The notes below the pieces were generated by a model. That model saw only the letters and a list, made by a program, of their open reading frames with translations. It had not been told where the DNA came from and searched no databases. From NCBI RefSeq assembly GCF_002999335.1, contig NW_020312613.1:112501-176500 (forward strand): DNA of 64,000 nucleotides, written 5' to 3'. A program made the position numbers and the translations under genes. The DNA comes from Cyclospora cayetanensis. Its lineage: Eukaryota > Apicomplexa > Conoidasida > Eucoccidiorida > Eimeriidae. The first letter of the stretch is position 1, and every line of letters starts with the position of its first letter. This document shows positions 16,597-44,096 of the stretch, piece after piece.

Positions 16597-17102
16597 TCAG
16601 GTGACTCTCCCTCCAAGAGTCGCTCTAAGAGCGACACGCTGCTTTTCTGTGGCAGCGAAGAAGAGCAGGAGCTCGACTGGCAGCCTGGGAGGCAGGCTGT
16701 TATTGCTGCTGCTGCTGCTGCTGCTGCTGCATTTGCAGCAACAGCAGGTTTCACTCTTTTGCTGTCTGCTGAACGCATTGGAGGCTTGCTGCAGCAGAGC
16801 AGTATTGGCTGCTCCCAAACCCCCCAGTTGCAGGGGAACCGCAAGCGCCCCTCCTTCTCCGCTGGGAGCTGCAGCCGCGACTGCCTGCAGCAGCACGGCA
16901 GAGCGCCGCAGCAGCAATTTGGCCTTAAGCGAGGTGGAGATACACTCGACGTGCTGGCGTATGGCCGTGACAACGGCAGTGGCGTCTGCAGCACCAGCAG
17001 CAGCTGATAACAACTGCGTTGCTGGGGGAAGGCAGAGCGAACCTAAAAGGAACAGAAGGGGGGGGGGTCCCCCCGTAGAGCAGCAGGATGCCTTGCTCTT
17101 GC

Positions 17103-17135
<33 letters not shown>

Positions 17136-19221
17136 TGCTGCTGCTGCGCTGACTCTTGCAGCAGCAGCAGGCGTGGCTATGGGCGACTACATGCGGATAA
17201 CACGTTTGCACCGCGAGCAGCTGCACAGCTCTTGCCAGGAAGAGCGGCGGCAACTGACACAAGGGGGTGGAGTACAAGGCAAGCATGAGCAGCACATAGC
17301 TGTACTCCTTGCAGCGGGTGTAGTCTTGAGACGTCTGCTGCTGCTGCTGCTGCGAGCTGTCTGCGCGGGATGTCAGCGCTTCCAACGCCACTGAACAAAG
17401 GACTGGCATGCGAAACTCAGCGTGCTGCTGCGGCTGCAATATGCGCTTCGCTATGGCCGTAGCAGACTCCTCCGCAATGCTCCACAGCTTCGTGAGAATC
17501 GAGAACGCCGAGGGATGTCGCAGCAAGTCAAACTGCAACAGCTCAAGCAGCTTTTGCTCCTCTTCAAGAATCCCCTCAGGCTTAATTATCACTTCAAGCG
17601 GTAGCAGAGCACCTTGTGCTTCTGTCGCCGTGCCTGCCTTCAGAGCAGCTCCCCAGAGTGCTCCTGATGCTGCTGCTGCTGGTAGGTGTGGCGGTGCAAG
17701 AAGCGTTGTAGTGGTGTTACTATTACTGCTGCTATTGCTGCTGCTATTGCTGTTGCTGCTGCTGTTACTGCTGCTATTGCTGCTGCTATTGCTGATGCTG
17801 TTGCTGTTACTGCTACTGCTGCTATTGCTGCTGCTATTGCTGCTGCTGTTACTGCTGCTGTTACTGCCGCCATTGCTGATGCTATTACTGCTGCTATTGC
17901 TGATGCTATTGCTGCTGCTATTGCTGCTGCTATTGCTGCCGCTATTGCTGATGCTGTTACTGCCGCTATTAACAGTGCTGCCGCTATCTTGTAGTGCAAT
18001 ATTCTGCTGATCCGGCACGAGTTGCTGATTCGGCTCAAAAGGAGCTGCTGAAGAGGGTCTCTCGAAGGCAGCGAAGGCAGCAGCCGTCCAGTCTTGATGC
18101 CACAGGTGTGCAGGAGGCTGCTGCAACTGTCGATGCTCATCTGCCTCCTGTGCTGCTTGCTGAATGTGCAGCTGGTGCTGCGTTTGCAGTTCAGAATTCT
18201 GCGGCTGGAGGCTGTCATTAGTGCTCCTCTTGCGGGCAGTGGCTGCCGCAAACTGCCGCGCGAAAGCCTCTCCTGCTACTGCTGCTGCTCCACTCTCGGC
18301 ATATGCTGCAGTGTTGTTTGTCTTGTAATACTCTTGACTTCTTTCCAAGAATACATCCGACATTTTCGCTGCAGCCAAGGTGCAGCAGCACAGCCTCTGC
18401 AACACCGATTTCGGAGGCGCTGCCGCTGCTGCTAGGTGTAACTGCAGCAACTCCTCTATCTGCTGCTGCTGCTCTGCTGCTGTTGCTGCCAAGTCGTGTT
18501 GCTGCTGCAAGCCATCGCGATAGCTGGAAAAAGAGGCACTCCAAAGCGCAGATGTTTGGTGCTGCTGGTGCTGCTCCTGCAACTCAAGCCGTGGCGTAAA
18601 ACTGCTGCTGCTGCTGCTGCTGCTCGCTGGATAGCGAGGCGGAAGGCATGCTTCTTTTGCAGCTCCCGCAAGTATGCGAGCTGTTTCGGTGACTGCCGTG
18701 GTGACGAGAGACAGCTGCTGCTCCTCAGCGGCCTTTTTGTTTACTGCTGCTGCAGGTGTTTCCAAGATGCCACTCCTGCTGCTATTGCAGGCAGTGATGC
18801 AGCGCTCGCCGTCACCTCGGAAGCCTCGCCTTGACTGCGTAAAACAGGATTGCTTCGTTTGCGTTTCTGCTAAGGGTACAGCGGCAGCCCGCTTAGATTG
18901 CAGAGAAACGGATCCTGGCAACTTGCGCTGCATTTGGTGCTGCTGCAGTTGCAGTTGGTGCTGCTGCAGTTGCAGTTGCTGCTGGCGCTGCTGCAGTTGC
19001 TGCTGCAGTTGCTGCAGTTGCTGTTGCAGCTCTGCTGCTCTGCTCCTGTGGTGAAGCAGATGCAGCGCTGTTTCCTCTACCAATTGCTGCTGCAGTACAA
19101 GATGCACATAGCTTGCAGCGAGATGGAGGGTTTGGTGCTGCAGTTGAAATTCTTGCTGCAGCCCAATGAGGGCGTCCATCTGCAGCGACAGAAAACGCGT
19201 CAAACGCAAGGACGGGAATGT

Positions 19222-19253
<32 letters not shown>

Positions 19254-19971
19254 TAGTAGTGGTAGTAGTGGTAGTGGTAGTAGTAGTAGTAGGAGTAGTA
19301 GTAGGAGCAGTAGTAGGAGTAGTAGGAGTAGTAGTAGTAGTAGGAGTAGCAGCAGCAGCAGTCTCGCGATACATTTAGTGGGCATATGCAATACATGCAG
19401 AACGTGGCGACCACTGAGGGAGCAACTCACGGCGATGTGCATAAACGGCGCAAGTATAGCCTTGGAATCTTCCCACAAGGCATCGCACTGAGCTTTTTGA
19501 AGGTGTTGCTGCCGTTGCTGCCACTGCTGCTTTTTACTGGGCAGGGGTGTGGTAGCCACTTCGTCGTCTAGCTGCTGCTGTATATGCATCTGCTGCTGCT
19601 GTATATGCATCTGCTGCTGCTGTATCTGTATGTGCTGCTGCTGCTGCTGTATCTGCATCTGCATATGCTGCTTCTGCATCTGCTGCTGCTGTTGCAGCTT
19701 GAGCAGCAAGCGCCGCTTTGCTGCTGCTTCCTTTTGGATCTGGTCGTTGCTGCGGTAGCAGCACTGGCAGACGAGGCTTTTAATGGCACTCCAACATGGA
19801 ATAGCCTCCCTAAGGCTAATGAGGCATTTGTTGCGCGTGGCAGCAGCACGCGAGAGGCTGCAACAACTGACACTCGGGGTGCTGCTGCAGCTGCTGCTGC
19901 TGCTGCTCTCGAGGAGCTCTGCAGGGAGCTCGTCTCGGTGTTTTCTGTTGCTCAGGCAGTTGCTTCTTCTC
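16597..19971 (-). CDS. cyclin-fold protein with very large Gln- and Ser/Asn-rich insertions
   Basis: This segment encodes a divergent cyclin, expected to bind a CDK-type kinase. Two exons are supported: 19971-19431 and 19179-16597, joined across a GTGAGT...CTGCAG intron with both edges in phase 0. The cyclin N-lobe signature lies just after the junction (19179-19080): an acidic/aromatic helix, then Gln-Thr-Leu-His-Leu-Ala-Ala-Ser-Tyr, matching the ETLxLAVNY motif of mitotic cyclins. The second cyclin repeat begins about 490 residues later near 17590, with Leu-Gln-Phe-Asp-Leu-Leu...Pro-Ser-Ala-Phe, and ends near 17215 with Leu-Ala-Arg-Ala-Val-Gln-Leu-Leu-Ala. Between them lies low complexity, including a Ser/Asn tract at 17700-17990. 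Exon 19971-19431 is in phase with the pseudokinase gene upstream (20178), so both may be one gene. The stop is at 16599-16597. Confidence 0.6.
19180..19430 (-). repeat. intron filled with ACT/GCT triplet repeat
   Basis: On the transcribed strand the intron starts GTGAGT and ends TTTTCTGTCGCTGCAG. About 150 of its 251 bases are ACT (with CCT and GCT variants). A frame starting at 19374 would read this as poly-Thr joined to the cyclin exon. The strong splice signals, phase agreement and the cyclin fold crossing the junction favour an intron. Confidence 0.65.
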
Positions 19972-20177
19972 CTAAAAATAACCAGACAGACAGATGATGA
20001 TGCAGAAGCGGCATTTCTATAGGTTTCAGCCTGCCTGCATTTCTGTGGCATGCAAAGCATGGAGTGCTTCTGTTTCTTATCCCCATTTCCTTTCTTTCTC
20101 CCCCCTCCTCCTCTTCCGAAAAACAAGAGCTGTCTCCCCTCTAATCTGCATCTGCGCAGGCTGCACAAACGGCTCAC

Positions 20178-23100
20178 CACTCCCGAGACTCGCACTCCTC
20201 TCTGCTCCTAACGCTGCTCCCGCAACCGTTGCTGCTGCAGCAGCAGCAGTAGCTACACCAGTCCCCTCGCTTCGTGCTGCTAGCGCTGCTGCTCTTGCTC
20301 TTGCTGTTGCTGATGATTTGTGGGGTCGGAGTGCCGCTGTCACTTCTTCGACAGCTGCTGCTGCCACCTCCACTGAACGTCGTGCAAGGCACCCCAGGCT
20401 GCAGAGACACCTCACGGCTACTTGCTTCGACACTGCTGCTCGCCATTGCGCTGTCTGCTGCTGTTGCAGCTGCTCTGGCTGCTGCTCTGGCAGCGACTGT
20501 CTCTACACGGCTTCGGAAACGTTCTGTCTCGATGCAGTGCTGCAGCAACTGCAGTGCTTGCTCTGAACACATCGCATCAGCAACATGATCATTATCACCA
20601 TCATCAACAGAAGCAGCAACGGCAGCAGCAAGAGTGCTAAGAGCGCAACAATTAGTGCTTTCTACGAACACATTGCAACAGCAACATGATCATTATCACC
20701 ATCATCAACAGAAGCAGCAACGGCAGCAGCAAGAGTGCTAAGAGCGCAACAATTAGTGCTTTCTACGAACACATTGCAACAGCAATATGGTCATTATCAC
20801 CATCATCAACAGAAGCAGCAACGGCAGCAGCAAGAGTGCTAAGAGCGCAACAATTAGTGCTTTCTACGAACACATTGCAACAGCAATATGGTCATTATCA
20901 CCATCATCAACAGAAGCAGCAACAGCAGCAGCAACAGTGCTAGGAGCGCAACAATTAGTGCTTTCTACGAATGCATCGCAACAGCAACATGGCCATTATC
21001 ACCATCATCAACAGAAGCAGCAACAGAAGCAGCAACAGCAGCAGCAACAGTGCTAGGAGCGCAACAATTAGTGCTTTCTACGAACGCATCGCAACAGCAA
21101 CATGGTCATTATCACCATCATCAACAGAAGCAGCAACAGCAGTAGCAAGAGTGCTAAGAGCGCAACACAGAGCGATCTTCAGATTTCCAGCAGCTGCAGC
21201 ACAAATCAAAACTGTACAAGGCAGCAGCAGCAGCAGCACTTCACACAGCCACCAGACCTGCTGAGAGGCGCTGCGTTCTGTCCATGGTGAGGGTGTGTTG
21301 CAGCAAGCGCAGTGGTTCACACCCTACGATTCTCCCGAACTGCAGCAGAATTCTTTCCGCTTCTGTTGCTTCGCTGTCTTGCAATCCTTCTTCCGGGGTG
21401 TGTGTGTTTATTGGTGGTGGTAGTGGTGAGAGAGGCGTGGGGATCGGTGGATGGGATGCTGCTCCCTCTGCTCCGACTGCGGGAGGGGTTCTTCCTGCTG
21501 CTGCTGTTGTTGCAGTTGCTGCTGCATGTGCTGCTGCATGCGGTGCAGATCCTGCTTTTTCATCGGAAAAATACTGTGCGCAGACGGATGGTGAGTCTCG
21601 CGAATACTGCTGCTGAAGATGCCGTAGCAGTGCCTTGTCAGCTTTGCTGCCGCAGGTGTCTATACACCGTATCCACTGCTGCAGCAGCGCGTCTTCCTCA
21701 AGTTTCAGCTGCTGCTGCATGCGCTGCCACCGAGGGATCGGCCACAGCGGAAGCATTTCAAGCCAGAGCATTGGGGAGACGGCTGTGGCTGCCTTTTCTT
21801 CCGTTGCTTCGCGCTGCTCATCGCCAAGCAGGAAGGTGAACTCCCCCTCCCCAGCTCTGCCTGCCTGCTGCTGCTGCTCCTGCCCCTGCGAAGGAGGCGT
21901 GAGGATGCGAAGCCACTGCTCTCGTGTTGCAGGCGTCCCAATCAATCGGCAACACTCTATGAGGTAGAGCAGCTCGCTGCTGCAGCAAAACGGTGGGGTT
22001 GTTGTTATGAGCTCGAAAAAAATAACCGCCACAGACCACATATCCACTTCGTAGCCGTACTGCTGCTGCAGCTGCTGCTGCCTCAGCAACAGCAACTCCG
22101 GTGCCTTGTAAGGCATTCGCTGACTCTCGCGGAGCGAGCGTTCACGATCTCGAGGATCTGTAAAAAGCAATCAGAAATTTGCGACAGCCTTCACAGGTTG
22201 GTGGGGTGATATGCAGGGAGACGTAGTGTGCGCTGCGCCTCCTTAGAAGATTCCCCCCCTCCCCTCTCAGTAGCAACTCTCCCTTAGCACTGGCAGCAGC
22301 AGCAGCAGCACGATTAGCAATTGCATTAGCAGCATGCTTAGCATTAGAATTCGCAGAAACATGATTAGCATTAGAATTCGCAGAAACATGATTAGCATTA
22401 GAATTCGCAGAAACATGATTAGCATTAGAATTCGCAGAAACATGATTAGCATTAGAATTCGCAGAAACATGATTAGCATTAGAATTCGCAGAAACATGAT
22501 TAGCATTAGCATTAGCAGCATGATTAGCATTCGCATTAGCGGCATGATTAGCATCAGCAGCAGAATGAAGAAGAAGAAGTATGTACTTTTAAGCAGCAGC
22601 ATGATTAGCATCAGCAGCAGAATGAAGAAGAAGAAGTATGTACTTTTAAGCAGCAGCATGATTAGCATTAGCAGCAGAATGAAGAAGAAGAAGTATGTAC
22701 TTTCTAGCAGCAGCATGATTAGCGTCAGCAGCAGAATGAAGAAGAAGGATGTACTTTCAGGTGTCAGTCGAACGTTTTTGTAGTCAAGAAGGCGGCCCAT
22801 CGCCAGATCGCTCAGCTTCACGCAGGGTGCTCCCACAGTGGAGTCAAAGAAGTCAAAAGCCGACAAACAGTTTTCTGCTGCTTCTGCGTTCACCCTGCAG
22901 CGGCAGCAGCCGCAGTCTGCTGCTGCTGTTGCCGCGGCAACTGCAGCAGCAGCGGCAGCCGCAACAGCAGGACGGGAGGGTGATTCTTGGTGAGCGTACA
23001 GGGGAGTGAAGTATCGAGAGAAAGCTAAAAGAGCTGCGTGAAACACAAGCAAACACATGTTGGAAGCGCTGCTTGCTTTCATCGAGCAACGCAGCTATGA

Positions 23101-25693
23101 CACTCGCGAAGACGTGCACAAAAGATCAGCGTTTGTGGCAGCGTCTAGGAAAGAAAGGCGAGGCAACCGCGTGGCAGCAGTATTTAGCGCCCACCTTTGC
23201 TGATGCTCGCGAAGGCAACTCGGGGATGCGCATCGCCAGGCAGAGACAGAAGGATGTTGTCTGGCTTTATGTTTCGATGTAAGACTCCTCGTTTGTGCAA
23301 GAACCGCAAAGACGTCAGCAATCCCTCAAGCAGCCGTAGTGCACCCCAACGCAAAAATCGACCGCCACCTAAGGAGAGACAGCCGGCCTCTTGCAATTCC
23401 TAAAACAAACCTCAGCATACATACATACATATATGTACATACATACGTATATGTACATATACATAAACATACACACATATACACAGACACACATATACAC
23501 AGACACACATGTACATGTACATACATATACATGTACATGCATATACATGTACATACATATACATACATACATATACATACATATATATATAAACATAAAC
23601 ATACACACACATACATACATATACATACATATACATATTCATATACATATACATACATGTACATGTACATACATATACATATACATACATGTACATGTAC
23701 ATACATATACATATGCATATACATAAACATACACACATATACATACGTATACATGTACATACATATACATGTACATACATATACATATACATAAACATAC
23801 ATACGTATGCACACGTTTTGTTTGATCGAGAAGGCTTTTTGTGTGTAGCAGGTTCTTGGTCGTGTGCCTGCGATTGGGAGCTTTAAAATGTAGGAGAAAG
23901 CGGGGGGGGGTGAACAGTTAGAGGAGGGGTGGGTGGAATGGTAGGGTGATGGGGGAGACAGGGGAATGTGGCGTCTTTATGCTGCATCTTTGCTGTATTG
24001 GCGCATAGGGTTTGACGTGGCTTACCCTCCAGTAGGATCTGAGATTTCTTCTGTGAAACTGTGTGCAGACATGGAGCATCGACCCTTTGAGCTCAGCTCC
24101 CACATAGCGCACAATTGGCAGTTCTTCCCGCCGTTCGTCTGTCTTGCTGGTGCTGCTGGTGCTGGTGCATGCGGTCGTCGCTGCGAAGGCGTGATCTCTC
24201 TGCAGCTGCTGCAAGAGGGCAAGTTCACGCAGCAGGGATGCAGGAACCCCGTCATCGACTTCTGCATTGCAGACTTTCAAGTTTACCGATCGAATAGCCA
24301 CGGGAGCGAGTAGCTCGGGAGTGGTGGTGGTGGTGGTGGTGGCGTTGCTGCTGCTGCTGTTGCTGCGGTGGATTTGAGGATCGAGCTGCTGCGACACAGC
24401 AGCCGCAATAGCCGCCTGCTCTCGCACTCTTTGCTGTCGAAGTATTACGGCAGGAACGAATCCTGCATAGACTCTGCCTTTGCTTCGCCTTTCTGAGAGC
24501 TCCTGGCTTTTCAAAGTCACAACAGACAGCAGTCCTTCCCTCTCTAGGATGCCACCCCATGCACTGCTGCTTAGCACCGCCATTCGCAAACAGCGACACA
24601 CACATGCCAGAGTCTGAAGGCTGTCTTGCCCCCCCAGTATTGGCAAAATCACGTCGACAGTCTGACTTATGGCGTAGGAGGCAGCACACACTGTAGGATC
24701 GGCTGTTGCTGGTGTGGCTCCTGCTGAGGACGGCAGATTTACTGAATTCGAGGTCAGCTGCATAGAGAGAGCCTCATCCTCGCTGCAGCTACTATCCGTG
24801 CGGCTGCTGCTGCGGCTGCTGCTGCTGTCATTGTTATTACTAGTAAGACGGCTGTGGCGGTTGGATTCGTCCCCGAAATTCTCAAAGAGGAGGAACGCAC
24901 TGTTGCTGCGGGAACTGCTTCGACTGACAGCGGGAGTCTTCGTTGCTGCGCAGCAGACGCAGACTTCCTGCAGCGGGCGTGTGACTGCTGATGCAGCATC
25001 TCTTGCCATGCTCTTGCTGCTGGTGCTACTGACGCTGCTGGTGCTCCTTTGGGGGCGAGCAAGGCGTTGGTTTCCGCGTGCACGCGCGACCGCCGCAGCT
25101 TCACACTCAGGTGTTTTTCCGGGTTGTTCAGAAGGCTGGAGAGACGACTGCTGCTGCCCTTCAGTCGGTGTGGCACCAACCCCTGCTGCTGTCAACGCAG
25201 GGGGAATACACCTGCGCCTTCGTTTGGATTTCCAGAGAGTCTCTTGAGTGAACGCGGGTGCAGAGGCTTCTGCAGGCCTGCTCTGCGGTGCTGTCAAAGC
25301 GTCGCTGTCTTGGTCGTGCAGAACTGCTGTTGCTGCTTCTGCTGTTGCAGTTTCCTGTGGGGCAGTGCTCCAGCGGGGTCTATGAATGCCGCCTGGCGAG
25401 TTGTAGCTGTTTGGACGCTCGCGCTTGGTGGGTTTCGGCATTTCAGAGAGTGGAAAGGAGGGGGCAAGACATGAGCTGGAGCTGGATGCAAGCGTACTGC
25501 AGCCGACGCCTCTGGGGTAGGCCTCCAGCGGTTGCAGAGCTGGACCATGGAAGGGCTGCTTTCTCCGCCGTCCACGACGCAGGCGCTCCAAACTGGAAAG
25601 GGTTGTGAAACAATCGAAAGAAGAGGGAAAACGGTCACGGGTAAGCTTTACATGCGCTGAGGGAGTGGTCCACCCCTGCACGGTTTGTGTCAA
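20178..25693 (-). CDS. F-box-like / CDK-like pseudokinase, five exons (may continue into the cyclin)
   Basis: Exons: 25693-24026, 23399-about 23195, about 23024-22755, 22157-21258, 20562-20178. A Met at 25441 is an equally likely start. Residues 346-386 read as an F-box (Val-Asp-Val-Ile-Leu-Pro-Ile-Leu...Leu-Ala-Cys-Val-Cys-Arg...Trp-Gly-Gly-Ile-Leu). A CDK-type kinase follows: a degenerate glycine loop near 405-411, VAIR (465-468) in place of VAIK, a PSTAIRE-like helix with Glu490, HRNIKPDN instead of HRDLKPxN (about 23280-23255), DLA instead of DFG (22809-22801), an intact APE-like KAPE, and DMWSVAVIFFEL. The last exon junction gives Arg-Leu-Ser-Ala-Glu-Gln-Ala-Leu, the CMGC subdomain XI end. 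Loss of the Lys, catalytic Asp and DFG points to a non-catalytic scaffold. The exon 2/3 boundary is uncertain. A stop closes the frame at 20174, but a GTGAGC donor at 20177 in phase with the cyclin exon suggests read-on by splicing. Confidence 0.65.
20564..21171 (-). repeat. 101-bp tandem array (about six units) in a pseudokinase intron
   Basis: Units start with ATGATCATTATCACC or a close variant at 20585, 20686, 20787, 20888, 20989 and 21102. Four spacings are exactly 101 bp and the last is 113 bp because of a 12-bp AACAGAAGCAGC-type insertion. The array fills the intron 21257-20563. Since 101 is not a multiple of three the array is unlikely to be coding. On the transcribed strand each unit carries a copy of the sequence around the intron's 3' splice site (see findings). 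Confidence 0.9.
22341..22502. repeat. six perfect or near-perfect 27-bp tandem units
   Basis: Unit GCATTAGAATTCGCAGAAAC plus ATGATTA, repeated six times with 27-bp spacing, inside intron 22754-22158 of the pseudokinase gene. It reads as a nine-residue repeat on plus, but no gene context supports translation. EcoRI-type GAATTC occurs in each unit. Confidence 0.9.
22564..22754. repeat. 57-bp tandem units carrying copies of the 5' splice site
   Basis: AATGAAGAAGAAGAAG starts units at 22564, 22621 and 22678, with a partial fourth at 22735. Each contains GTACAT on the minus strand, at 22586, 22643 and 22700, matching the donor used at 22754. Confidence 0.85.
23405..23815. repeat. CATA/CATGTA microsatellite within a pseudokinase intron
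   Basis: About 400 bases of ATACAT, ACATGTAC and ACACATATAC units, lying in intron 24025-23400. Several long frames on both strands are artefacts of the repeat. Confidence 0.9.
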
Positions 25694-26930: not shown

Positions 26931-28786
26931 TCATGAAGATACGTCGATCTTCACACCGTATTTCACGTTTTCTGGGCTCTGCCCCTTTGAAACATCCAGT
27001 TGGGTCCCGACTGTGGCATGCAGGTAGCCGCAGAGTTTGTGGGTGACGGCTACAGCCAAGAGGCCGTTCTGCGATATCTTGGATTTTACAAGGGTGTCTT
27101 TCTCATCGTTCATGTACCACATGCCACCGAAGGTAATATTGCTCTTGTTATCTGGAATGCTGTATTCAATCTCGGCAGCCACCTCTGCGCCGCGACCATC
27201 CAGAGACTTGCCGTTGACGCTGCCCAGGATCTTCCCGAACATCATATTGCATGTTGGGGCGCTGCATCCACAGAGGCATATGCCAGGCGCAAAATTGGAG
27301 ATACGATTCCACTAAAGCAAGCACTAGGGCGTATTGAGACGGAGTGTCTTGATCCGCGTGTGCAAATGCCGCCTCTCGCTGTAGGCCGAGAACGGCTGAT
27401 GCTTGGGAACGCGGGTAAATGCAGTCTCGTAGAAAAAGCCAGATGGAAAACTTACGTTCGAACAGCCGCCATCCAGCAACCACCCTTTCCTCCCGTCGTG
27501 GGGGCAGTGTAAGATGCGCCTACTGCGTATTTCATGCCCGAGGCGTCGAGCTTGCCCGAAACCTCGCCTAAGAAAACAAACGGCAACGAAAGCGAAATCA
27601 TGTCGAAACCAACCGGGGAAGGAAACACTCAACGGCTAAAGCTTCGGCACTGCCCTTCCCACTTTGCAAGACTTACCACCGAACCTGAAGCGCTCATAGG
27701 TGAAGGTTCCGGAAGAGGTGAACGTCCTCAGGATAGGGCTAACCTGAAGAGTTCAGAGCAGAAGCACACCAAATACTGTCACTGGGTGGTTTTGCACATG
27801 AAGACCAGTAGATCTCCATGCGATGCAGCAGACACGCGTTTCATGAAAAAGAAAAAAGCCACAGCCCTCCTTTACGGCGAAACCACCATGCGGCCATGCA
27901 AACGCAGAAACCATTATTTCAACAAATCCCCAGACTTTTACACGAAGTGAACCTGGAGCCGCTTCAAAGGGCGCAGCAATCCCGCACTCCCAGCGAGCAA
28001 GACTCACGTTCAGGATGCTGTGGAAACGGGGAGCGACGTATTCCGTGGAAAAGTCAAAAGCGTCTGCAGTCGTCTTCTCCCCCTTCCTCTCATACTTGGT
28101 GGAGAGAATCAAGCTTGGGAATTGGGGGATCTGTTTCAAAAAACGCAATCGTACCTCCTCCACCATTAACCCTACTGGCAAGCGAGGAGATCCCGGCAAA
28201 CAGTATTGGAGCTCAAATCAACGCCAGGAAAAACCTTTTCATATTCGCTCCTCCGCAAGCTACACGACATATACACCCCAAACTAGGCATTTAACCCAAA
28301 GTACCTTGTAGGACAAATCCACGTAGGACCTGCCGGCAGATAGAACCTTGACCTCTGCAGTCGCATCTCCCGCGGTGTACGTCAAGGTGGAAGACGCATC
28401 AAATCCACCGAGATTGTTCACCCCAGCTGTATTTACGATTTGCTGAGCAACGGCACGGCAGGCAGGCGGGCACACACTTGCAATCGCGCGAAAAAACGGC
28501 TTGTGCGCGGGCACTGACGGAAAACAAATCCAGAGAAACTCGGAAATGAAGCGCACTGGGCTACAGCAGGCCGTCCATCGCAATCGACGCAGCCATTTCC
28601 TCTAGCACAGAAGCTAAAGTAATGCACTTTACGCATTTGCACGCACTCCCCACAATCCAACGGCGGTGGGCTGCGCCTTACTGGATTCTTCGACTTGTAC
28701 TTGTACTCAAGGTCCCATGGCTTCTCATGAGGAAATCCTTTCTTGAGGAGGTCTGCGGAGTAGAAAATGCAATCCAAAGCCCGCAT
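26931..28786 (-). CDS. VDAC: voltage-dependent anion channel (mitochondrial porin), multi-exon
   Basis: A beta-barrel channel of the outer mitochondrial membrane that passes metabolites such as ATP and ADP. Supported exons: 28786-28682 (Met-Arg-Ala-Leu-Asp-Cys..., with Asp-Leu-Leu-Lys-Lys-Gly-Phe-Pro as expected near VDAC N-termini), 28442-28305, 28130-28008, 27743-27677 and 27567-27456. A last exon starts near 27311 and ends with a stop at 26933-26931. The first four junctions agree in phase and use GTAAGG, GTACTT, GTGAGT and GTAAGT donors. The link from 27456 to the last exon is not phase-consistent as drawn, so a short exon is probably missing from my model. The last exon shows the typical alternating strands, including Gly-Gly-Met-Trp-Tyr, Leu-Val-Lys-Ser-Lys-Ile-Ser and a terminal Lys-Tyr-Gly-Val-Lys-Ile-Asp. 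Confidence 0.75.
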
Positions 28787-41103: not shown

Positions 41104-44096
41104 TTAGTTCGTATCCCGGAGAGCAGGATCCAAGTCATCAAAATACGGATGCTGCATGGCTTTCTTCGCCGAAATCCTCTCGGACGCCTCAAAGACTAAC
41201 ATTTTGGAAAGCAAATCCAACCCGCAGTCGCTCAGGCCGGGGGCCTAGGAAAACACGAGAGGAGAACACAAAAAGTCGAAAGCCATGATTTTCTGGGCGT
41301 GTAAGGGTGTGTGCATGTGAACCCCCTGCACTTATCGTGCATGCACGTATCTCTAGAAATACCCCCAAACCGCATGAACGAGCGCCCAAAAAGCCATAGT
41401 TGCTGCGCACAACAGGGGTGCCGCCTCACAACGCGCCATCTACGTGTCTGCCCCGCAGCAAGCAGACTACCCAACCTCCCCAAAAGCCGAAAGCCGTCCG
41501 GCAGAGACGTTACATGGCACCCCATAACACGCTGAATGCGCCCTCAGTGGGGCCTCATCGACACTCAACGCACGATGTATTTCCACTTCAACGGTGGGTA
41601 ATACTTGAAGTTATTGCGCCACTGCGGCAAACCCGTGAGGCTTTCAGTTGGAGCAGGCGTCCCTGTGGAGCGCATGCAGCAGACACACACACACCGTCCG
41701 CGCCTTAAGGCTGTGGCTAAGGGCGTCAGTCGCTAAACCCGTCTTTGCGCGTGCATGCATGCATGCATGCATGCATGCATGTGCTGCTTGGGGGGCCTCT
41801 GCGTTGCACGATTACCTAAAACCTTGAAGATTCGCTGGAGCTGGTCTTCGTTATTCGAGCCTGGAAACAGGGGTCGCCCGTTCACCATCTCTGCAACAGC
41901 CCCCAGTGTCAATACACCATACGCGCACACTCGGCATACACTACAAGACAGACGCTCAAGCCCCCATCCAGCAGGAGAGCGCCTTGAGCAGCCCAAGGCA
42001 ACTTGGCAGGGGAAAAATATCCTCAAAAAGCACCGTGCTAACCCCAAGATATTCGCCACAAGAAACAGCCGCACCGACAGGATCTCGAAGAGAGCAGCAG
42101 AGGAACAGCCGTTTTCCCTTCTCCTCCTCTCCCCCCAACTACGATTACGACCCCTCGGAAACGTAGACACATTCAGGAGCTTCTGGCAGCCGCCAAAGGG
42201 CGAGCACTACAATGGCTGGCTGCTAAAAGAGGGCTGCACAACGCCTCACCCGCGAAGATGCATCCTATACTCCAAATATCGACAGGCGTAGAGTAAGTGT
42301 TGCTGCCCATCAGAACGTCAGGAGCCCGGTACCACAGAGTTACAACTTCGTGAGTGTATGATCGAACTGGGATGCCAAATGCTCTGTGAATGCGCAACTC
42401 GTACACTTTGCAGACAGCAGCACGACGTGTGGAAGGAAGAATCATGCGATGTGGTGTGGCTGTCACCCTAGAACCAGCTCACGAGGCGAAGAAAGCGAGC
42501 GCCGCTTCCACGTGGAGGGATTCACAAGGCATGCAGACACGAAAAAGGCATGTGGGCAGACATGCATGCAATCATGAAGGCCTGCGTGTGTGCACGTTGC
42601 ATTTACCAGCGGTGCATGCATACACGACACAGGCGCGACGAGCACAGACACACACGCAGCAGCCTCTTCCCTTGGCGAAATGGCGCAGTTGCAAAGCAAC
42701 CCCACTCGACAAGGCTTTTGCATGTACCTGGCGAGGCCAAAGTCTGCGAGTTTGAGAGTTCCGCCTCTGCTGATCAACAGATTTTGGGGCTTGAGATCTC
42801 GATGCAAAACTCTGAAGAGCGCATGCAGAAACAACGGGGACGCCCATGCATGCATGCATGCTGTGGGAAGCAGGAAGCTGCCGCTTGCGCCTGCCGGAAC
42901 GACAGGCGAGACGCGCGATCTTTTTTCGAGCCATCGCGTGCAATCTTGTTTTTTGCGCCTCCAAAAACGTCTGCACCCAGGGGACGTGATGTTTCCAACG
43001 ACTGCTGGTGAGCTCCATGAAAAAGCGCAAGTCGCACACCCCAGGCAGGGAGAAAAGGGAAGCAGAAAGGGAGGGCAGAAAGGGAGGGCAGAAAAAGATG
43101 GACCTGTGTTGGTGACAGTAAGCGATGCCCTTCAAGAGTTGGTACAAAAATGATTTGACGACTTGTGGCTCCAATCCAGCGGCTGCAGGCAGACAGGCAG
43201 ACACAAGCGCCCACCTTCTTTCGAGGCTTCTTGCATGGCTGGGTTGTGTATGCATGCACTGTTGTTTAACAACATCGAGGCGACCTCAAGAGGTTGCAGC
43301 AGTGGACTAGCATGCGAAAGGGGATACCATGAAGCAATATGCATTCAGTAAGGGGCACCACAGAGAGGGGGTTCAAGCACGCCAGCCACACACATATACA
43401 CATACATATACAAATATATACATACACACATACATATACACATATATACATACACACATACACATACACACATTTACACGCACATTTACACACATACACA
43501 CATTTACACACATATACACGCACATGCACACACATACACACACATACACACACATACACATACACACATACATATACACACAAACCACGCATACTGGACC
43601 CCTCAACCGAGATTAAGGCATTTGCTTGCATAAAAAGCCGCTGCTTACGGCGGCATGCATCGAGAACTTCCTTGAGATCCTGCTCAAGATATTCAAACAC
43701 GAGGGTTAAGCGTTTGTCGGTGTGGACGACATCCATTAGTCGAACGATATTGGGATGGTGGAGCTCCTTAAGCAGGGAAATCTCGCGTATGGCTGCAAGC
43801 GTGCAGCACATTGTATGCACAGACACACACACATGAACTCCCCTAATAGAGGCCTTTCTGAGCCACGATGCGTAGACACGAGGCTATGACAATTACATCG
43901 CATGCAAGAGGCCGCATGCGCTGTAAAAGTGGCGTGAGAAGCAAGCGTGTGGCGTGCCTGTCGATGGAATCCCCTCGTCTTCTGCCTCCAACCGGATCTT
44001 CTTTAAGGCACAGAGATTGCCATTGGCATCTTGCGCTTTGTAGACCACGCCGTAGGTTCCCTCGCCTATCTTGTCAAGCTTCTTGTAGCGATCCAT
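41104..44096 (-). CDS. CRK2: cyclin-dependent kinase CRK2 (PSTAIRE CDK, PfPK5/CDK1-like), eight exons
   Basis: A Ser/Thr kinase that, with a cyclin, drives cell-cycle progression; apicomplexan orthologues are PK5/CRK2. Exons: 44096-43958, 43792-43649, 43182-43104, 42811-42728, 42383-42250, 41890-41816, 41662-41574, 41244-41104. They join to 885 bases, 294 residues, close to the usual about 290-300. The GEGTYG loop holds the inhibitory-type Thr14/Tyr15. Further landmarks are Lys32, the PSTAIRE helix (44-50, preceded by Gly-Ile), HRDLKPQN with Asp126, DFG at 144-146, T-loop Thr159 in [16 protein letters not shown] and WSIGCIFAE. The C-terminus ends His-Pro-Tyr-Phe plus a short tail. PSTAIRE itself is split by intron 1, whose donor must be GCACGC at 43957. 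Other donors are GT. All seven introns are 150-470 bp. Confidence 0.95.
41753..41781. repeat. GCAT tandem repeat within CRK2 intron 6
   Basis: About seven perfect tandem GCAT units (self-complementary in GCATGC form) lie in the 153-bp intron 41815-41663. Confidence 0.9.
43385..43588. repeat. CA/TACACA microsatellite within CRK2 intron 2
   Basis: About 200 bases of ACACAT, ATATACAT and TTTACACA units inside intron 43648-43183. Confidence 0.9.

Follow-up and report, generated by a model that had tools for sequence, protein, structure and literature searches.

The window analysed here is a stretch of 64,000 nucleotides from contig NW_020312613.1 of Cyclospora cayetanensis (assembly of 43.2 Mb in 392 contigs). 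Its minus strand carries a gene for which we propose a single protein product, composed of an F-box-like segment, a pseudokinase resembling cyclin-dependent kinases (CDKs) and a cyclin. The joined gene model consists of seven exons spanning 25441-16597 (Table 1). It comprises 6309 nucleotides and encodes 2102 amino acids, the sole stop codon is the terminal one, and all introns (6/6) are of the GT-AG type. An earlier note on this DNA had placed the start at 25693 and had summed the exons to 6552 bases, or 2183 residues. The codon at 25693 is TTG, and in that open frame an ATG is first reached in phase at 25441, with none upstream; the start at 25693 was rejected. Counted from 25693 the corrected exons amount to 6561 nucleotides, and the earlier sum was replaced by the values given above. 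The coding exons contain CAG-rich repeats, and CAG-rich coding repeats are a trait of Eimeria. Tandem repeats (101-bp x6, 57-bp x3.7, 27-bp x7.5 and TACATA-like) fill the introns 20563-21257, 22158-22754 and 23400-24025.

Table 1. Features of the F-box/pseudo-CDK/cyclin gene model (window positions; the family is described in the text)
Feature	Position	Strand	Description
Exon 1	24026..25441	-	Low-complexity N-terminus, F-box-like segment, start of pseudokinase N-lobe with VAIR and PASLLRE; family profile matches residues 253-415
F-box-like segment followed by family motif ERRSKGR	24470..24685	-	Located with the family F-box profile
Exon 2	23195..23399	-	Catalytic-loop region; HRN at 23279-23271 replaces HRD
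Exon 3	22755..23033	-	DFG region KLSDLAMGR preceded by a low-complexity insert; first half of activation loop
Exon 4	21258..22157	-	Activation-loop insert PRDRERS, APE motif, kinase C-lobe
Exon 5	20178..20562	-	Last helix of kinase fold (EQALQLLQHC...), low-complexity tail, donor GTGAGC
Intron 5 (as read here)	19972..20177	-	206 nucleotides between kinase and cyclin blocks; GT-AG, in phase; holds the two-gene stop at 20174
Exon 6	19431..19971	-	Low-complexity linker, first cyclin helix (ILAPFMHIA)
Exon 7	16597..19179	-	Remaining cyclin fold, long low-complexity inserts, signature KMSDVFLERSQEYYKTNN, terminal stop

The kinase half of the protein matched Pfam Pkinase with an expectation value (E) of 3.9e-17. 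Among solved structures the kinase stretch matched CDKs (E 4.5e-13), with CDK4 as the top match. At the positions that we take to correspond to the kinase motifs VAIK, HRD, DFG and PSTAIRE, the window protein reads VAIR, HRN, SDLA and PASLLRE, respectively; the set expected of an active CDK (VAIK lysine, HRD aspartate and DFG) is not present. The cyclin fold is split by low-complexity inserts. Pfam Cyclin_N matched the whole second half with E 1.2e-4 (22.2 bits, just below the 23-bit cut-off), and in the joined second half this match crosses the junction of exons 6 and 7. When the inserts were cut out, the core matched Cyclin_N with E 5.7e-10 and, among solved structures, cyclin A2 with E 9.3e-05.

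The first protein search considered only the 8000 candidates with the most words in common with the query, which is rich in low-complexity words, and gave one match. This was BESB_016990 of Besnoitia besnoiti (P0001; 3309 residues), with Pkinase at residues 319-492 and Cyclin_N at 1611-1650; its kinase is 44% identical to the family alignment over 222 columns. Using the Besnoitia match as query added a Neospora caninum protein of 2393 residues with kinase and cyclin domains, annotated as 'putative protein kinase (incomplete catalytic triad)' (P0002), and a protein of the dinoflagellate Prorocentrum cordatum with kinase, Cyclin_N and Cyclin_C (P0003). In the latter, residues 1 to approximately 2600 look unrelated by eye and the kinase N-lobe is absent; this front part is probably a gene-model error. 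No Toxoplasma, Eimeria or Cyclospora relative was found by name in three protein searches, in which names are often missing and lengths possibly fell outside the searched ranges.

With the cyclin stretch of the Prorocentrum protein as query, 59 proteins of 500-1060 residues were obtained. One of them belongs to Durinskia baltica, as the taxid in its name shows, and we infer that the set is of dinoflagellate type. According to the precomputed Pfam column, Pkinase and Cyclin_N occur together in 56/59 and F-box-like is listed in 25/59. HRN was found after residue 200 in 49 of the 59, and 42 of these were aligned (alignment A1; P0004, P0031, P0042, P0046, P0048, P0052 and P0057 were omitted). Scanned one by one, all 42 members of A1 contain Pkinase, Cyclin_N and Cyclin_C, and 40 have F-box-like at E ≤ 0.01. 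A conserved block of approximately 80 residues follows the cyclin in the dinoflagellate-type members of A1 (P0009 856-938), with the consensus LEHWD ... RREWKS ... YPERFPVSKLVRYILPD.

Six entries that carry 'mmetsp' or 'TRINITY' in their names, which we take to denote transcriptomes, were scanned as well. P0010, P0048, P0051 and P0054 contain Pkinase, Cyclin_N, Cyclin_C and F-box-like (E 2.7e-4 to 9.9e-3 for the last, each under the Pfam cut-off). In P0060 an F-box is not seen at E ≤ 0.1; P0034, which starts at HRN, has kinase and cyclin. Since gene callers cannot merge assembled transcripts, and repeated chimeric assembly is unlikely, the single chain is very probably real in the dinoflagellate-type lineage.

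A profile of the whole family (49 members) matched the joined window protein with E 1.5e-50. The match runs from the F-box to the cyclin in six collinear stretches, of which two, with E 1.9 and 0.34, are weak. The match to residues 611-719 begins within exon 3. In exon 5 the profile match is weak (E 1.9), and there the window sequence is collinear, as judged by eye, with the Besnoitia segment RISAAAAYDRV... and the Neospora segment RISAAAAYARV.... The ORF (open reading frame) of exon 4 alone matched the family kinase profile with E 6.9e-18, and that of exon 7 the family cyclin profile with E 1.1e-10. Two signatures are shared as well: TPE[ND]P[KR][DE]R[DE]RS in the activation-loop insert (52/59 members) and E[QR]S.EYYK (59/59 members), both of which also occur in the window protein and in P0001-P0003. 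By its sequence, the window protein is a coccidian member of a family of single-chain F-box/pseudo-CDK/cyclin proteins found among dinoflagellate-type sequences. A scan of IMG/VR with the family alignment gave 32 pattern matches, with no relative among them.

The window locus was also compared with other loci of the source genome. With the family member P0009 as query, 26 matches were found. The highest was a different kinase (C61; 43 bits, 27% identity over 231 residues), ahead of window exon 4 (38.6 bits, 43% over 83 residues), C61 ranking higher because the window kinase is split over exons. The family kinase profile gave 140 bits for the window and at most 65 bits for eight other kinase loci of the P0009 search, a gap that is inflated, since unspliced ORFs were used to score those loci and a spliced protein was used for the window; the best single exon of the window scored 61 bits. 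Pfam placed three other cyclin loci in the genome at E ≤ 0.001, in a scan that did not list the split cyclin of the window, and with a limit of E ≤ 0.01 the family cyclin profile picked up none of the three.

Whether the kinase and the cyclin are encoded by one gene depends on the reading of intron 5. The splice sites described in the earlier note were found as stated: the exon 20562-20178 closes at the donor GTGAGC in phase 2, the acceptor TTATTTTTAG lies directly before the exon 19971-19431, the next cyclin junction (19431/19179) is in phase, and the kinase frame, when left unspliced, terminates at 20174 (ESREW*). The weight that had been given to the phase match was corrected. In this region 191 of 691 donor-acceptor pairs (27.6%) give a frame that runs uninterrupted as far as the cyclin stop, and an in-phase junction is no better than chance as a sign of fusion; as proof of a fusion it was rejected. 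Likewise, 4 of 7 pyrimidine-rich acceptors are in phase with the donor at 20178, which counts against the join being beyond chance. Local sequence points in favour of the join are modest: among the 8 GT sites considered, 20178 is the sole GTGA/GTAA donor, the gap measures just 206 nucleotides, and it contains none of the four poly(A)-type hexamers that were sought.

The same region could be read as two neighbouring genes: the F-box/pseudo-CDK gene would close at 20174, and the start of a cyclin gene would lie at 20060, at 20051 or within exon 6. The stop at 20174 fits this arrangement, as do eight in-frame ATGs (20060 to 19442), each a possible start of a separate cyclin gene, and the ease with which chance yields an in-phase junction. 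In addition, the window gene model was built from genomic DNA alone, and the Besnoitia and Neospora chains are themselves predicted models that might share a merging error. Against two genes stand the narrow gap with no poly(A)-type hexamer and, above all, the single-chain homologues, in which the pseudokinase is followed by the cyclin on one chain in Besnoitia, Neospora and Prorocentrum. The 56 kinase-cyclin proteins include transcriptome entries, for which chimeric assembly in several entries simultaneously is unlikely. It is these homologues, and not the phase match, that lead us to the single-chain reading. The locus is predicted with high confidence to encode one chain, as the earlier note had suggested, and we consider two separate genes very improbable.

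In the family as a whole, the position of the catalytic aspartate reads HRN in 55/59 proteins and HRD in 0/59. Three of the four members without HRN (P0006, P0016 and P0062) list no Pkinase, and the fourth (P0055) starts past the catalytic loop. HRN is also present in the Besnoitia, Neospora and Prorocentrum models. Within A1 the beta-3 position is arginine in 42/42 and the HRD aspartate is replaced by asparagine in 42/42; the glycine of DFG is threonine in 41/42 and serine in 1/42. The C-helix glutamate, the DFG aspartate, the threonine equivalent to T160 and the residue equivalent to E295 of cyclin A are kept in 42/42. The CDK2 and cyclin A numbering used here (T160, E295, K266) was placed through alignments of P0009 to solved structures. 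Catalytic residues are thus lost with full fidelity in A1 while several CDK-cyclin contact residues stay.

A kinase that remains active by an unusual mechanism, despite the beta-3 arginine and the asparagine in place of the catalytic aspartate, would account for the invariance of the C-helix glutamate, the DFG aspartate and the activation-loop threonine over the 42 rows, and the DFG motif is intact in Besnoitia and Neospora. Both core catalytic residues are nevertheless substituted in every row of A1, where the DFG glycine is gone as well, and we regard activity as improbable. Judged from these residues, the pseudokinase is in all likelihood catalytically dead. Dead catalysis together with retained docking residues would fit a binding module.

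The F-box of the earlier note stood only in part: by Pfam alone the segment is weak, and its placement comes mainly from family collinearity. No F-box family of Pfam matched the kinase half of the window protein at E ≤ 1. With cut pieces, F-box-like gave E 0.036 for a piece of 51 residues (14.3 bits, with a cut-off of 24.3) and no match at E ≤ 10 for a piece of 103 residues. The segment scores below the curated cut-off, and it was assigned as an F-box only through its collinear position in the family. When the family F-box profile was run against 1393 sequences, the window segment was the only match at E ≤ 1 (7e-4 for the exon ORF, 2.6e-3 for the joined protein). A profile ended before the ERRSKG motif gave no window match at E ≤ 1, so the match rests partly on the adjoining ERRSKGR. 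The core of this motif, RRSKG, occurs in 49/59 members and in the window protein. The source genome contains one match to the Skp1 domain, and its four F-box-like loci above the cut-off are all elsewhere.

The best overall explanation is, in our view, that one chain belonging to this family carries a dead CDK-cyclin module, paired in cis for binding, and an F-box that connects it to a Skp1-cullin-F-box (SCF) ligase; taken as a whole we consider this somewhat favoured. The cyclin would dock in cis on the pseudo-CDK and fix a CDK-cyclin-like shape that is unable to transfer phosphate. This rigid module would bind cell-cycle substrates or regulators that normally meet CDK-cyclin, and the F-box would tie it to Skp1-cullin, whereby the bound cell-cycle proteins would be ubiquitinated. 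For a receptor that works in this manner, with cis docking, Skp1 binding and substrates all predicted, we put the chances at about even.

Several observations weigh against this explanation. A genome-wide F-box-like search returned 13 places at E ≤ 10, none of them at this locus, which adds to the Pfam results given above. The Besnoitia and Neospora models show nothing at E ≤ 1 with the F-box profile, and the RRSKG motif was not found in these two coccidian models (nor in the Prorocentrum model). On the cyclin side, a substrate patch of the MRAIL type is not recognisable by eye in the window protein, and the equivalent of K266 of cyclin A is never lysine in A1 (valine in 39, cysteine in 2 and isoleucine in 1 of the 42). 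A conserved block of approximately 80 residues follows the cyclin in the dinoflagellate-type members of A1 (P0009 856-938), with the consensus LEHWD ... RREWKS ... YPERFPVSKLVRYILPD.

The main rival accepts the single chain and holds that its F-box has degenerated in the coccidia with loss of Skp1 binding, leaving a scaffold or decoy that sequesters CDK regulators or substrates and has no ubiquitin function. The weak window segment and the absence of a detectable F-box in the Besnoitia and Neospora models agree with this, and HRN in all members of A1 suits a scaffold. The detection of F-box-like in nearly all of A1 and the retention of ERRSKGR after the F-box in the window speak against it. 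Furthermore, the Neospora model starts inside the kinase and the Besnoitia model some 127 residues upstream of it, and both may lack their 5' exons. We consider such a scaffold or decoy unlikely, though it deserves more weight than the two-gene or the active-kinase reading.

The earlier note knew of no described protein with this architecture. That view was corrected for the kinase-cyclin chain, and the F-box is the part for which no description was found in the literature searched. In Phytophthora infestans, four CDKs are reported to carry a cyclin domain at the C-terminus, as confirmed by reverse transcription PCR (Judelson and Ah-Fong 2010, PMC3019232). According to the available part of that paper, all four have the Asp-to-Asn change in subdomain VIb, relatives occur in other oomycetes, Paramecium, Tetrahymena and Theileria annulata, and no such chain was reported from T. 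gondii or P. falciparum. Like those chains, the window protein has a CDK-like kinase followed by a cyclin, with asparagine for the catalytic aspartate; beyond what the available part of the paper describes for them, its family adds an F-box-like segment. The word 'F-box' does not occur in the main text of PMC3019232. An F-box on such chains, or a coccidian member, was not found mentioned in the open-licence literature of PubMed Central, which is no proof of absence. No such protein appears in the available parts of PMC5510908, PMC11148040, PMC6685633 and PMC7686383, and the terms sought were not found in PMC11570480. In Toxoplasma seven cyclins have been counted, with no A-, B-, D- or E-type among them, as far as the available part of PMC5510908 goes, and the word 'cyclin' is not used in the main texts of the Toxoplasma F-box papers PMC6685633 and PMC11570480.

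Among solved structures, the best relatives of P0009 are CDK2 for the kinase (E 1.2e-50) and cyclin A2 for the cyclin (E 9.2e-15). As in CDK2, a PSTAIRE-like helix with its glutamate is retained in the family. In contrast to the CDK2/cyclin A2 pair, the family has one chain instead of two, the catalytic aspartate and lysine are replaced and an F-box is added; the alignment of P0009 further shows an activation-loop insert of approximately 11 residues relative to CDK2. The cyclin core of P0009 also matches solved cyclin F (E 3.6e-07), from which it is more distant than from cyclin A2. Cyclin F (FBXO1) of animals carries an F-box and a cyclin on one chain with no kinase domain between them, and uses its cyclin as the substrate binder of an SCF complex. 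By analogy, cyclin F is the nearest counterpart of the proposed receptor, the difference being the kinase domain that separates F-box and cyclin in the window protein.

Two other genes were noted in the window. Upstream of the F-box/pseudo-CDK/cyclin gene and likewise on the minus strand, positions 26934-27311 encode the C-terminal part of a mitochondrial porin (Porin_3). Another protein kinase gene, with several exons and with Pkinase matches in three ORFs, lies at 42176-43883, also on the minus strand.

The F-box/pseudo-CDK/cyclin layout is, to judge from the sequences collected here, most likely shared with dinoflagellates and yet hardly described. Tentatively, and at slightly less than even chances, the family may represent an ancient myzozoan SCF receptor that follows the logic of cyclin F with a built-in pseudo-CDK, from dinoflagellates to coccidia. 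The catalytic aspartate is lost in every member of A1 and the activator still stays joined to the kinase from dinoflagellates to coccidia, which suggests that the pair has been kept for a non-catalytic role. Given the F-box that accompanies the pair on its chain, regulated destruction of cell-cycle proteins is the obvious candidate for this role. The Toxoplasma cyclin count, together with F-box papers that do not use the word 'cyclin', indicates, within the available parts of these sources, that the family may have been overlooked in coccidian cell-cycle inventories. It opens the direct question whether a CDK-cyclin pair in cis can serve as an SCF receptor.

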